Assembly (NCBI GenBank): GCA_913776965.1
Contig: CAJYQL010000117.1
Span: forward strand, 1 to 62,250
From: an uncultured Xylophilus sp.
GTDB lineage: Bacteria; Pseudomonadota; Gammaproteobacteria; Burkholderiales; Burkholderiaceae_C
Direction: 5' to 3'
Length of the DNA stretch: 62,250 nt
Shown: one piece after another, positions 6,320 through 20,274 of the stretch
How the letters are laid out: each line of letters begins with the position of its first letter
Numbering within the stretch: position 1 is the first letter of the stretch
Translations under genes and position numbers: made by a program
The notes under the pieces: model-generated
Told to the model about the DNA's origin: nothing
Databases searched by the model: none
What the model saw: the letters and a program-made list of their open reading frames with translations, nothing else

Positions 6320-7447
6320 TTAACCGCGTGCGCGGCGGGCCGCCACGGCGTCCGACAGCACCTGCAGCGTCTCGAGCGACGTGTCCCATCCGAGGCAGGC
6401 GTCGGTGATGCTCTTGCCGTATTCCAGGCCGCCGGCGTCGTCCTTGCCCGGCGTGAACTTCTGGGCGCCGGCGTTCAGGTGGCTCTCGACCATCAGGCCG
6501 AACACGCCGCGCGAACCGCCCGCGATCTGCTGCGCCACGTCCTGCGCGACCACCTGCTGGCGCTCGTGCTGCTTGCTGCTGTTGGCATGGCTGCAGTCGA
6601 CCATCAGCGTGGCCGGCAGGCCCGCCCTGGCGAGGTCGGCGCAGGCAGCCTCGACGCTCGCCGCGTCGTAGTTGGGCGCCTTGCCGCCGCGCAGGATCAC
6701 GTGGCAGTCGGGGTTGCCGTCGGTCTGCACGACCGCGACCTGACCGTTCTTGTGCACCGACAGGAAGTGGTGGCCGCGCGCTGCCGCCTGGATCGCGTCG
6801 GTCGCGATGCGGATGTTGCCGTCGGTGCCGTTCTTGAAGCCGATCGGCGCCGAGATGCCCGAGGCCAGCTCGCGGTGCACCTGGCTCTCGGTGGTGCGTG
6901 CGCCGATCGCACCCCAGCTGATCAGGTCGCCGATGTACTGCGGCGAGATCACGTCGAGGAACTCGCTGCCGGCCGGCAGGCCCATGCGGTTGATGTCGAT
7001 CAGCAGCTGGCGCGCGATGCGCAGGCCTTCGTCGATGCGGTAGCTCTCGTCGAGGTAGGGGTCGTTGATCAGGCCCTTCCAGCCGACGGTGGTGCGCGGC
7101 TTCTCGAAGTAGACGCGCATCACGATCTCCAGCGTGTCTGCGTACTTCTCGCGCTCGGCCTTCAGGCGGCGGGCGTATTCCAGTGCCGCGTGCGGGTCGT
7201 GGATCGAGCACGGGCCGATCACCACCAGCAGCCGGTCGTCGCGGCCGGCGATGATCTCGTGGATCGCGTGGCGGGTGCCGGCGATCAGCGACTCGACCGG
7301 GGTGCCGCGGATCGGGAAGAAGCGGATCAGGTGTTCGGGAGGCGGGAGCACGGTGATGTCCTTGATGCGTTCGTCGTCGGTCGTACTGGTCTTGTCGACG
7401 CTCGCATACCAGGGCTCGCTGGCGGCTTGGGTGGGGGCTGCGTTCAT
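6320..7447 (-). CDS. aroG: 3-deoxy-7-phosphoheptulonate (DAHP) synthase, class I
   Basis: Condenses phosphoenolpyruvate and erythrose 4-phosphate, the first step of the shikimate pathway. It has 375 residues, like E. coli AroF/AroG/AroH. Recognisable family stretches include VVIGPCSIHDP, SEFLDVISPQYIGDLISWGAIGARTTESQ and GFKNGTDG. Which aromatic acid inhibits it cannot be read from sequence by eye. Expression is very likely controlled by transcription attenuation: a leader peptide gene rich in Tyr, Phe and Trp codons and an intrinsic terminator lie directly upstream. Confidence 0.96.
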   Translation of the reverse strand: MNAAPTQAASEPWYASVDKTSTTDDERIKDITVLPPPEHLIRFFPIRGTPVESLIAGTRHAIHEIIAGRDDRLLVVIGPCSIHDPHAALEYARRLKAEREKYADTLEIVMRVYFEKPRTTVGWKGLINDPYLDESYRIDEGLRIARQLLIDINRMGLPAGSEFLDVISPQYIGDLISWGAIGARTTESQVHRELASGISAPIGFKNGTDGNIRIATDAIQAAARGHHFLSVHKNGQVAVVQTDGNPDCHVILRGGKAPNYDAASVEAACADLARAGLPATLMVDCSHANSSKQHERQQVVAQDVAQQIAGGSRGVFGLMVESHLNAGAQKFTPGKDDAGGLEYGKSITDACLGWDTSLETLQVLSDAVAARRARG

Positions 7448-7486
7448 GGTGTGCTCCTGTGCTCGGGGGAAGGTTTCGGGGGCCGG

Positions 7487-7523
7487 AAAAAGAAAAACCG
7501 CCGGGCTTTGCAGCGCCGGCGGT
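7487..7523 (-). terminator. Attenuator (leader terminator) upstream of aroG
   Basis: On the minus strand ACCGCCGG and CCGGCGGT form the complementary arms (7516-7523 and 7497-7504) of a GC-rich hairpin with an 11-nt loop, followed by TTTTTCTTTTT. It lies between the leader peptide stop (7550) and the aroG start (7447), so it ends transcription before the structural gene. Its 5' arm can alternatively pair with an identical CCGGCGG copy within the leader coding region (7569-7575). Confidence 0.85.
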
Positions 7524-7549
7524 ATTTACTGAGATTCGGTGTGCCTGCG

Positions 7550-7621
7550 TTACGCGCGCACTCTCAGTCCGCCGGATGGACGGAACCAAAAGTAAAAGTA
7601 GGCGGCGCTGCGGGTTGGCAT
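7550..7621 (-). CDS. Aromatic-amino-acid-rich leader peptide of aroG
   Basis: A 23-residue ORF whose residues 8-13 read YFYFWF, six consecutive aromatic codons (TAC TTT TAC TTT TGG TTC), followed by 10 more residues and TAA. This matches a ribosome-stalling leader: shortage of charged Tyr, Phe or Trp tRNA would stall the ribosome there. Mutually exclusive pairings can be drawn: GCCGCC (7601-7606) with GGCGG (region 2, within 7569-7575), region 2 with the terminator 5' arm, and the terminator itself. No strong Shine-Dalgarno is seen. A TGC-TACATT extended -10-like element ends only about 9 nt before the ATG, so the leader mRNA may be almost leaderless. Confidence 0.8.
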   Translation of the reverse strand: MPTRSAAYFYFWFRPSGGLRVRA

Positions 7622-7941
7622 GGCGCAGGAATGTAGCACACGCACATGCTGCTGACCGGTCGCTACGACGGTCTTCGGACCTCGGTGGTGCAAAGGCGCA
7701 ACGGCGCCAAGCGTGCCGATCCGCTCGCAATGGACGTCGATTCGTCCTGCGATGGCTCAGCGTACGGAGCAGAAACCCTACATACCCGCCGCGTTCCCGA
7801 CAGATGCAACCTGCTGCGTCCTACACCCAAAAATGATGTTTCCAACCCATTTGTGATGCTTGCGCGCGGAGGATCGCGTTGTCACCGGACGCAGGTTCGG
7901 CGTCGAAAACCACAACGTTCTCATCCACTCGGGAGTTCTTC
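7622..7941. other. Divergent intergenic region between the aroG leader and a membrane protein gene
   Basis: About 320 nt without a convincing gene. On the minus strand it must hold the aroG promoter; a candidate extended -10 (TGCTACATT) is at about 7631-7639 and no good -35 box is visible. On the plus strand a GGGAG Shine-Dalgarno (7931-7935) precedes the ATG at 7942. Confidence 0.5.
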
Positions 7942-8946
7942 ATGCCCATCGTTTCCCCCGCCGCGCCGCTCGACCCGCGTCCCTGGCATTCCGCCATTTC
8001 CTGGGGCGCCGTGTTCGCCGGTTTTGTGCTGTCGCTGGTCGTGTACCTGATCCTGTCGGTGCTCGGCACGGCGATCGGCGCGTCGGCCATCGATCCGATG
8101 GGCGACCGCAATCCGTTCGCCGGCTTCGGTGTCGCCACCGGCGTTTGGGCGGGCGTCACCACGCTGATCGCGATCGCGGTCGGCGGCTACTTCGCCGGCC
8201 ATCTGGCCCGCGCCGAGGGCGGTTTGCACGGCCTGCTGGCCTGGGCCCTGACCACACTGGTCACGGTGTACTTGGTGATCAGCGCCACCGGCAGCGCCCT
8301 GGGCGCCGTCGGCAGCACCGCACGCGCTGGCCTGTCGGCTGCAGGTTCGGTGGCCGGTGCCGGCCTCTCGGCGGCCGCACCGTCGGTCGGCGGCGCGGTG
8401 AAGGGCCAGCTGGAGCAGGCCGGCATTTCGCTCGACATCAACAGTCTGCAGAGCGAATTGGAAAAGCTGCTGCGCCAGACCGGCAAGCCCGAGCTGCAAC
8501 CGGAAAACCTGAAGGGCGAGGCGCAAGCCGCCGCACAGGACGGCCAAGCCCGCGCCAGCGACGCCGCGACCACGCCGCAGAACGCCGACACCGATGCCAA
8601 GGGCTGGCTGGCCAACGTGATCCAGCGCGGCGAGAAGGTGCTGAACGCCGCCGACAAGGAGGCGCTGGTCAACATCATCGTGGCCCGCACCGGCAAGAGC
8701 CGCGCGGAAGCCGAGCAGATCGCCAACAACTACGAGCAGACCTACAACCAGGCCCGGGCCAAGTTCGACCAGGCCAAGGAGCAGGCAGAGCAGAAGGCCC
8801 GTGAAGCCGGCGCCGAGGCCGCCAAGAGCGTCGCCAAGGGCTCCTGGGGCACGCTGGTGGTGCTGCTGATCGGCGCTGCGATCGCCGCGTTCGCCGGCAC
8901 CCTGGGCCTGCGCCGCCAGCGCCGCGACGTCTACGTCGCTGCCTGA
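7942..8946 (+). CDS. Conserved membrane protein (YrzE/PhnA-like type)
   Basis: A 334-residue protein with an N-terminal membrane segment (SAISWGAVFAGFVLSLVVYL), two further glycine-rich segments up to about residue 110, a long hydrophilic coiled-coil-prone middle rich in Gln, Lys and Ala, and a final membrane segment near the C-terminus (TLVVLLIGAAIAAFAGTLGL) followed by RRQRRD. The start at 7942 was chosen for its GGGAG ribosome site; a longer TTG start at 7879 has less support. The function is not known. Monocistronic, with a strong terminator behind it. Confidence 0.75.
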   Translation: MPIVSPAAPLDPRPWHSAISWGAVFAGFVLSLVVYLILSVLGTAIGASAIDPMGDRNPFAGFGVATGVWAGVTTLIAIAVGGYFAGHLARAEGGLHGLLAWALTTLVTVYLVISATGSALGAVGSTARAGLSAAGSVAGAGLSAAAPSVGGAVKGQLEQAGISLDINSLQSELEKLLRQTGKPELQPENLKGEAQAAAQDGQARASDAATTPQNADTDAKGWLANVIQRGEKVLNAADKEALVNIIVARTGKSRAEAEQIANNYEQTYNQARAKFDQAKEQAEQKAREAGAEAAKSVAKGSWGTLVVLLIGAAIAAFAGTLGLRRQRRDVYVAA

Positions 8947-19865: not shown

Positions 19866-20274
19866 GTTGATTTACAGGTGTGCAGGCACTTGCACACACG
19901 GGTAAACCCTTATACACTCGCGCCCCGCTGCGGCCGAAAGTAAGACTTATCCTACATTAGCAAAGCCGAGCTGGCCGAGTCTTGGGCGCAATCATGCTGT
20001 GACGGCACAGATGTTGCGAATACTCGTCATTTATTCGATGGCCTCTTCTCCATGGTAACCCCGGTTACTTGGGGGGTTTACGCACACGCGAAAGTCTTGC
20101 TACGATCTTTACAAGACTTGACCGAGTGACCCCATCGATTAGTTGTCAGACGCCGGCAAAAAGAAAATTATCGAACTGCAGTGCATCCGTGCAGTGAGGG
20201 GAAACAGCATCGAGCGCCGTGGTGGCGCCCGGTTTCAGCCCGTTTGGGTTATTTTTCTATTATCTGGAGTTGAG
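19866..20274 (+). promoter_or_regulatory. Leader/promoter region of the tad locus with three inverted repeats
   Basis: About 410 nt, clearly lower in GC than its surroundings and without a gene. Inverted repeats: GTGTGCA-6-TGCACAC (19878-19897), GTAACC-2-GGTTAC (20055-20068), AAGTCTTG-12-CAAGACTT (20092-20119). A possible promoter is a -10-like TATACA/TACACT at 19911-19918. A good ribosome site (GGAG, 20266-20269) precedes flp. The repeats are plausible operator sites or a structured 5' UTR; the regulator is unknown. Confidence 0.55.

Follow-up and report, generated by a model that had tools for sequence, protein, structure and literature searches.

A probable ribosome-mediated attenuator with aromatic leader codons upstream of the DAHP synthase gene in an uncultured Xylophilus sp. 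and other Proteobacteria

In an uncultured Xylophilus sp. (assembly GCA_913776965.1), the gene aroG, which encodes a type I 3-deoxy-D-arabino-heptulosonate-7-phosphate (DAHP) synthase, is preceded on the minus strand by a short open reading frame (ORF) with six consecutive aromatic codons and by a terminator hairpin. The stretch analyzed, in the following called the window, comprises positions 1 to 62,250 of contig CAJYQL010000117.1. Judged from its sequence and from that of related loci, this leader region very probably acts by ribosome-mediated attenuation of transcription, as in trp/phe-type leaders; it would sense the charging of the aromatic tRNAs (Tyr, Phe, Trp) and control aroG. This reading had been put forward in a first-pass annotation of the window and is supported by the anatomy of the region, by its conservation in relatives and by the fact that the terminator and antiterminator pairings are kept.

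Leader, terminator and aroG

The following features were assigned to the leader region between positions 7640 and 7440.

7638-7630, minus strand: extended -10 promoter element TGCTACATT, from the sequence; its hexamer TACATT (7635-7630) lies 8 nucleotides 5' of the leader ATG
7621-7550, minus strand: leader ORF MPTRSAAYFYFWFRPSGGLRVRA of 23 codons, with its ATG at 7621 and the stop codon TAA ending at 7550, from the ORF list and the sequence
7600-7583, minus strand: sensor, six aromatic codons in a row (TAC TTT TAC TTT TGG TTC), from the sequence
7594-7579, minus strand: region 1, 5' strand of the protector, TACTTTTGGTTCCGTC, comprising the terminal part of the aromatic run together with the next codons, from minimum-energy folds
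7575-7562, minus strand: region 2, the box CCGGCGG (7575-7569) followed by ACTGAGA (7568-7562), the strand common to protector and antiterminator
7534-7516, minus strand: region 3, TCTCAGT (7534-7528) and ACCGCCGG (7523-7516), the 3' strand of the antiterminator and the 5' arm of the terminator
7504-7497, minus strand: region 4, 3' arm of the terminator, CCGGCGGT, from the sequence, the terminator scan and the alignment
7497-7493, minus strand: T tract of the terminator, TTTTT, followed by C and more T, from the sequence
7447-6320, minus strand: aroG, type I DAHP synthase, the gene under putative control, with its ATG at 7447, assigned by NCBIfam TIGR00034

The leader ORF, the six aromatic codons, the stop, the GC hairpin, the T tract and aroG are each present where the first-pass annotation had placed them. 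The aromatic run (YFYFWF) forms residues 8-13 of the leader peptide. The terminator, an 8-base-pair GC hairpin (ACCGCCGG / CCGGCGGT) with its T tract, occupies 7523-7493 between the leader and aroG, whose ATG lies 102 nucleotides 3' of the leader stop. The CCGGCGG copy within the leader, likewise noted before, equals the first seven bases of the terminator 3' arm. Leader ORFs of this size are commonly omitted from annotation.

To follow the element in relatives, as the annotation had suggested, loci were chosen by similarity of the AroG protein alone, and the best 80 of a longer list were inspected for a leader with at least four F, Y or W within 9 or 10 residues plus a terminator. Aromatic leader and terminator are kept in 61 of these best 80 loci, also beyond Burkholderiales, or in 61 of the 79 evaluable ones (L022 has short upstream DNA); with a second filter they amount to 60 distinct loci and L060, a repeat of L059. 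With the window included and ten further loci added from an AroG protein search of genomes of the order, 71 distinct AroG-selected elements were obtained, 63 of them with at least six aromatic residues in 10 and 8 with four or five. A GC-rich hairpin with a T tract is present in every element counted by construction of the filter; across 160 elements the leader stop lies 15-48 nucleotides 5' of the hairpin.

Among the best 80 loci, leader and terminator are present in Comamonadaceae (19/19), Oxalobacteraceae (8/8), Sphaerotilaceae (7/7), Burkholderiaceae (10/16, or 11 with the duplicate), Burkholderiales without assigned family (6/6), other Betaproteobacteria (3/5), unnamed sources (3/4) as well as Alcaligenaceae, Rhodanobacteraceae, Lysobacteraceae and Devosiaceae (1/1 each). 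They are absent from Methylophilaceae (0/3), Zoogloeaceae (0/2) and the single loci (0/1 each) of Gemmataceae, Rhodocyclaceae, Anaerolineae, Ectothiorhodospiraceae, Vibrionaceae and Chitinibacteraceae. Outside Burkholderiales the element was found in Dyella (L071) and Xanthomonas (L079), and Xanthomonadales are thus included. The one named alphaproteobacterial case is a Devosia metagenome-assembled genome (MAG, L072), in which the box is not an exact GGCGG.

Furthermore, of the 62 elements collected up to this point, 50, window included, served to build a model, R1. The other 12, for the most part Oxalobacteraceae of different spacing along with one duplicate and outliers, were not used, and matches to R1 are biased towards its own sequences. 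In the own genome of the window, R1 gave one full-length match at E<=10, which is the window element. Five partial matches cover the terminator end of the model and were rejected as further elements. Within the class, R1 matched 19 of 370 genomes at E<=0.01, 7 of them in full length. Within the order, R1 matched 87 of 300 genomes at E<=0.001, and AroG was detected in 230 of the 300 at E<=1e-60. Out of these 87 R1 loci 85 were examined; aroG is next in 79, and six are without AroG. The independent filter for leader and terminator is passed by 75 of the 79 loci with aroG; L198 fails it though its aromatic leader is plain, as it is short of the filter's window, and the other three that fail are L176, L177 and L191, described below. 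The remaining two of the 87 genomes show matches to the terminator end, and L096 is without AroG. At the level of the phylum, R1 matched 46 of 348 genomes at E<=1e-4, and all 24 phylum loci L234-L257 have AroG as well as leader and terminator. These 24 loci contain all the phylum matches outside the class of the window, whose lineages we infer; in 18 of these 18 the DAHP synthase gene is next, with leaders such as MITVATSYFWYFSYDSSLAAGGSRSI.

A fortuitous ORF or a degenerate remnant in front of a terminator would be the simplest other explanation, and terminator-like matches are common on their own, as the five partial R1 matches elsewhere in the genome illustrate. For an estimate of chance, both strands of the 62-kb window were scanned for ORFs of 10-45 amino acids with at least six F, Y or W in 10 residues and a terminator within 110 nucleotides. 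Two ORFs satisfy the aromatic part of this search, and a terminator within 110 nucleotides occurs only after the aroG leader. In 5000 dinucleotide-preserving shuffles of the 330 nucleotides 5' of aroG, an aromatic ORF arose once and an ORF with a terminator never (0/5000), so that leader and terminator together are beyond chance. Conservation in named Betaproteobacteria and Gammaproteobacteria, in the Devosia MAG and in the 18 genomes outside the class also stands against a chance arrangement, which is refuted at the sequence level by this conservation and to which we assign a negligible probability.

Transcription of the leader apparently starts close to its ATG. The extended -10 element in the window implies a predicted 5' untranslated region (UTR) of about 0-2 nucleotides. 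Among 159 elements, 83 have a -10-like hexamer with a score of at least 5.5 that ends 5-10 nucleotides 5' of the leader ATG, whereas mononucleotide shuffles (n=100) gave 6.6 +/- 2.7 and at most 14. It is therefore probable that translation of the leader begins right at the RNA end in roughly half of the elements, the window among them. Four Burkholderia-like examples (L047, L048, L057, L062) have TATAAA 36-38 nucleotides upstream instead, and a scan for two-hexamer sigma-70 promoters gave no promoter within 6400-8600. The -10 match argues against a transcription start downstream of 7550. The near absence of a 5' UTR, which the first-pass annotation had called odd, is indicated by the putative -10 element; the arrangement is shared by roughly half of the relatives and is similar to that of trpL in Sinorhizobium, which is leaderless.

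The aroG product is a DAHP synthase of the AroF/G/H type (TIGR00034, 530.5 bits with a cut-off of 173.2). The AroG-specific model NF006723 scores 536.9, below its cut-off of 568, so that the letter G in the gene name is a loose one. In its best segment the protein is 91% identical to AroG of Xylophilus sp. Leaf220. In the own genome (136 contigs) a single AroG match was obtained and no match to a type II DAHP synthase. A second PF00793 match was ruled out as a second DAHP synthase, since it is 3-deoxy-D-manno-octulosonate (KDO)-8-phosphate synthase. Therefore, aroG is the only DAHP synthase gene found in the genome. The Trp repressor gave no match in the own genome while the E. coli control was matched, in a search that did not cover TyrR. 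The single DAHP synthase gene and the lack of a Trp repressor match were counted in favor of attenuation.

Conserved codons and pairings

Among the 160 distinct elements, the aromatic run contains Phe, Tyr and Trp in 101, Phe and Tyr in 52, Phe alone in 5 and Phe and Trp in 2 cases; for the 71 AroG-selected elements the corresponding numbers are 49, 20, 2 and 0. The order of the residues differs, with YFYFWF, FYFAYFWF, FYFYFFW, FFTGYFYF, FYWYYF and SYFWYFSY as examples. An exact GGCGG box is located between run and terminator in 146 of the 160 elements (66 of the 71 AroG-selected ones), and the last aromatic codon ends 8-12 nucleotides 5' of it in 107 of the 146 (45 of the 66). The box is found in leader frames 2, 0 and 1 in 100, 40 and 6 of the 146 elements, respectively (36, 28 and 2 of the AroG-selected ones). 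The AroG tree (FastTree, 141 rows) requires a minimum of 12 changes of this frame, and the same RNA box region is translated as PGGREA, PLAEEG, TAVE or SLAAGG. The occurrence of the box in three frames and the varying aromatic residues argue that RNA pairing and codons are kept, not the peptide sequence.

These observations bear on the possibility of an arrest peptide, for which TnaC-like systems are the precedent. Here, a free aromatic amino acid or another ligand, in place of codon charging, would be the signal on which the nascent chain itself stalls the ribosome. The strong conservation of the aromatic run and the similar length of the leaders speak for such a peptide. However, order and identity of the aromatic residues vary freely among the leaders and the residues after the run change completely, with the same RNA box read in three frames. 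Because of the three box frames and the varying aromatic order, an arrest peptide was judged unlikely, and we regard its probability as very small.

The codon choice within the run is biased as well. Phe is encoded by TTT in 190 of 299 leader-run codons (64%) versus 90 of 557 in the aroG genes (16%), and the TTT fraction of the leader is above that of aroG in 67 of the 71 loci and below it in 3. Slow decoding or the avoidance of structure may account for this preference. In three genes of the window the ratio of TTT to TTC is 1:40.

The antiterminator of the window joins CCGGCGG-ACTGAGA with TCTCAGT-AAATA-CCGCCGG. The fold of 7590-7515 has an energy of -32.4 kcal/mol with a z score of -3.42, and an alignment of 50 sequences shows pairing for 95.7% of the cells in the antiterminator and 97.8% of those in the terminator. 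The window fold and the proportion of paired antiterminator cells bear out the earlier proposal that the leader copy of CCGGCGG can pair with the terminator 5' arm. The pairing is longer than had been described, as ACTGAGA (7568-7562) also pairs with TCTCAGT (7534-7528).

The partners of the predicted antiterminator look co-adapted. The box region gave -15.13 with its own region 3, versus -14.08 +/- 0.16 after exchange (n=143, 0/2000 permutations) and -14.52 +/- 0.13 after exchange within leader-tail classes (0/2000). The protector partners likewise look co-adapted: the 30 nucleotides 5' of the box gave -12.41 with their own box region versus -11.45 +/- 0.18 with others (146 elements, 0/2000) and -11.63 +/- 0.14 upon exchange within classes (0/2000). 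Both partner permutations ignore phylogeny and include loci found with R1, which lessens their weight.

In the minimum-energy folds, region 1 pairs with a partner strand at 7573-7559. Within the spacing class of the window (23 sequences), the protector consensus pairs TTCTC with GAGAG and GTCC with GGAC, and 211 of 230 cells are paired versus 194.6 +/- 2.7 (0/1000). An attempt to define one protector consensus for all spacing classes failed. GCCGCC, which is present at 7606-7601 directly 5' of the aromatic codons, had been named as a strand that can pair with the leader copy of CCGGCGG. It was rejected as protector strand, as it is unpaired with the box in the minimum-energy fold, and a local hairpin of the end of the run with the box is formed instead. 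A 5-nucleotide complement of the box (G-U allowed) occurs 5' of the run in 31 of the 61 usable leaders among the 71 AroG-selected ones versus 15.4 in shuffles, a count that ignores kinship. Such an upstream complement may add something in some lineages.

Proposed mechanism and points against it

The proposed course of events is as follows. Transcription would start at or within about 2 nucleotides of the leader ATG, and the ribosome would load on the end of the RNA. With plentiful charged tRNAs, the ribosome would reach the stop codon and cover the GAGAG half of the box, so that no antiterminator would form; the terminator would then fold and transcription would end ahead of aroG. If a charged aromatic tRNA becomes limiting, the ribosome would stall in the run and disrupt the protector, which is probably in the main the local hairpin of the end of the run with the box. 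The freed box would engage region 3 while region 4 is still to be transcribed, and the polymerase would continue into aroG. One sensor could in this way read all three end products, as the first-pass annotation had suggested. The least certain step is the combination of the inputs, and we see about an even chance that any one of the three amino acids suffices by itself to trigger the switch (OR gate). From the sequences we infer the start site, the termination, the response to starvation, the amino acids that count and the kinetic order of folding.

As to the geometry of the elements, box end and stop end lie no more than 30 nucleotides apart in 144 of 146 elements and no more than 19 in 83, and a ribosome that has reached the stop codon would overlap with the box or with its GAGAG half. 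Stalled ribosomes were modeled with an assumed footprint of 10 nucleotides past the A-site codon. With RNA up to region 3, the antiterminator core is formed in 122 of 143 elements for a stall at the first codon of the run and in 124 of 143 for a stall at the last one.

Besides the design of the permutations mentioned above, a number of results weigh against attenuation. When region 4 is included, the antiterminator core survives in the minimum-energy fold of just 13 and 11 of the 143 elements, respectively. The commitment thus has to occur before region 4 is made, as it does in other attenuators, and the switch would have to be kinetic. In the modeling without a ribosome (n=143), the partner of the box is region 3 in 56 elements and the stretch 5' of the run in 18, and the other 69 show a different pairing or none; since the antiterminator is formed in the 56, untranslated RNA might read through. 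Of the five other spacing classes examined, one has a weak protector hairpin (25/1000), one a different structure (83/1000) and three have no consensus.

Corrected for phylogeny, the covariation is too sparse for significance. The antiterminator core is invariant save for one G-U in the 50 aligned sequences, and the GGCGG:CCGCC core hardly varies, so that no covariation evidence comes from it. At its variable neighbour, the bases of box, 5' arm and 3' arm occur together in the Watson-Crick combinations C-G-C, T-A-T or A-T-A in 51 of 65 AroG-selected elements; of the remaining ones, 3 have a G-U antiterminator pair and 11 a mismatch with the box. The terminator pair at this position is kept in 65 of 65, a number to be read with the filter's preference for such pairs in mind. 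On the AroG tree, five independent pairs differ at this one covarying triple, with 2.3-3.4 concordant and never opposed. Five pairs are too few for significance, and the AroG-selected subset has two. With respect to the compensatory stem changes for which the first-pass annotation had called, the box base follows in 2.3-3.4 of the 5 tree pairs, short of significance. Alignment A1 was accordingly discarded as covariation proof of the antiterminator, its core being near-invariant and its single triple lineage-clustered and not significant on the tree.

The distribution of the element also has gaps. It is absent from 18 of the 79 evaluable AroG-selected loci. Three Polynucleobacter loci without it have aroG a few tens of bases after the apparent end of tldD, and two Cupriavidus aroG copies are without the leader (L034 on chromosome 2 and L035). 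L176, L177 and L191, from one genus of the same order, were found with R1 before aroG; they keep the GGCGG box and have only 1-3 aromatic residues, and their sensor may have been altered or lost in part. As a separate observation, two further aroG copies lack the leader (L155 on contig 15 of G514 and L166 on contig 34 of G588), and the other copy in each of these genomes has it.

A different kind of switch would have leader translation coupled to Rho or to the translation of aroG, with the hairpin as mere mRNA structure. It would fit with the full-leader minimum-energy folds, in which the antiterminator loses out to the hairpin or to other structures, and with the fact that a clear protector is not seen in every spacing class. 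On the other hand, the window hairpin is GC-rich with a T tract, and the 102 nucleotides between leader stop and aroG ATG make coupling of stop and start unlikely. We consider such a switch highly improbable, and transcription attenuation by a stalled ribosome remains the preferred reading.

Comparison with known systems

The textbook case of DAHP synthase control is that of E. coli, by TyrR and TrpR, and the first-pass annotation had pointed to the repressors there in contrast to attenuation. For attenuation of such a gene, the aroR-aroF system of Corynebacterium glutamicum provides a precedent. The enterobacterial leaders trpL, pheL and pheM each respond to a single amino acid, and a ribosome-binding site is present in their 5' UTR. 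The window element shares with trpL-trpE, pheL-pheA and pheM-pheST the leader ORF with regulatory codons and, as predicted, the mutually exclusive protector, antiterminator and terminator; it differs from them by codons for three amino acids and by an apparent start at or next to the ATG.

The closest precedent, C. glutamicum aroR-aroF, likewise has an aromatic leader peptide before a DAHP synthase gene. Stalling of the ribosome in the aroR leader (Phe-Tyr-Phe) is reported to induce aroF under Phe limitation (PMC11802643, PMC4046766). This organism is an actinobacterium, and its leader has three aromatic residues and no Trp. In addition, aroF is reportedly unaffected by the availability of Tyr despite the Tyr codon in the leader (PMC11802643), which also counts against a sensor for three amino acids and is a warning against taking every leader codon as a working input. 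In Sinorhizobium meliloti, trpL is a leaderless attenuator ORF whose terminated RNA is a small mRNA (PMC10117765). It resembles the window element, as predicted here, in being leaderless, whereas it reads Trp only, precedes trpE and also acts in trans by its RNA and peptide.

Predictions for other DAHP synthase genes have been published as well. uORFC-13-1 before aroF of Acholeplasma is a predicted Phe-containing upstream ORF with a terminator, in a report by Breaker's group which mentions an earlier E. coli aroF hypothesis (PMC8632094); in contrast to the window element it comprises 24 sequences from Acholeplasma and environmental sources and has a ribosome-binding site. Attenuators were predicted for aroA-I-alpha>tyrA of Vibrio (PMC1173090), and an aroF motif of Shewanella was annotated with a Tyr-tRNA-sensing attenuator after E. 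coli work of 1980 (PMC2659441). Both concern attenuation of a gammaproteobacterial DAHP synthase operon and are listed predictions, with no leader sequences and no relation to the window element given in the parts considered. At gathering thresholds, Rfam release 15 gave only a tRNA elsewhere in the window, and for seven relatives at E<=0.1 one match to a microRNA family under its threshold. In the literature searched, the element is undescribed for Burkholderiales, Xanthomonadales and Alphaproteobacteria; the main comparative attenuation surveys lie outside its coverage, and Vitreschak et al. 2004 and Lopatovskaya et al. 2010 may list it. What is apparently new is a proteobacterial, mostly Phe/Tyr/Trp and seemingly leaderless attenuator on the entry enzyme of the pathway.

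TyrR and TrpR are reported to be well conserved in many gammaproteobacterial groups and absent from other classes (PMC5343134). This distribution leaves open how many Proteobacteria control the entry into the aromatic pathway, and an RNA switch as proposed here would be a concrete answer. Tentatively, and with somewhat less than even confidence, we suggest that a leaderless OR gate with three inputs is ancient in Beta- and Gammaproteobacteria and at least one further class, probably Alphaproteobacteria, and that TyrR/TrpR were a later replacement in one gammaproteobacterial branch. The missing Tyr response in C. glutamicum takes weight from this proposal, and horizontal spread is an alternative to an ancient shared origin. 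The element would furthermore lend itself well to testing how attenuation works with leaderless initiation, for which the ribosome has to be loaded at the end of the RNA, behind the transcribing polymerase.

Some further observations were made along the way. In the Anaerolineae MAG L073 (about 1795-1965), an aromatic leader, MSRYFSFFSWYGYFAAGQ..., and a long GC hairpin lie 5' of aroG; the filter found no T tract and inspection by eye no GGCGG box. The logic of sensing may be the same here, combined with a different output structure. L171, L172 and L173, from one genus of the same order, have a full-length R1 match with aromatic leader (e.g. MITFSAVFNAYFYWYRSSRRLQGASLD) and terminator and no aroG. 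Here, the leader (wider context in L231-L233) precedes a protein of about 200 amino acids (MNEVSDA...), followed by a DUF4870-like membrane protein; the two proteins scanned, one each from L171 and L172, gave nothing above the Pfam cut-off. At 20222 on the plus strand of the window, a GTG-start ORF, MAPGFSPFGLFFYYLELR, has 6 aromatics in 10 residues and no terminator within 110 nucleotides. Between aroG and tldD, an Ala-rich ORF of 355 amino acids without an NCBIfam match is located on the opposite strand (7879-8946, plus strand), and in several relatives aroG directly follows the end of tldD.
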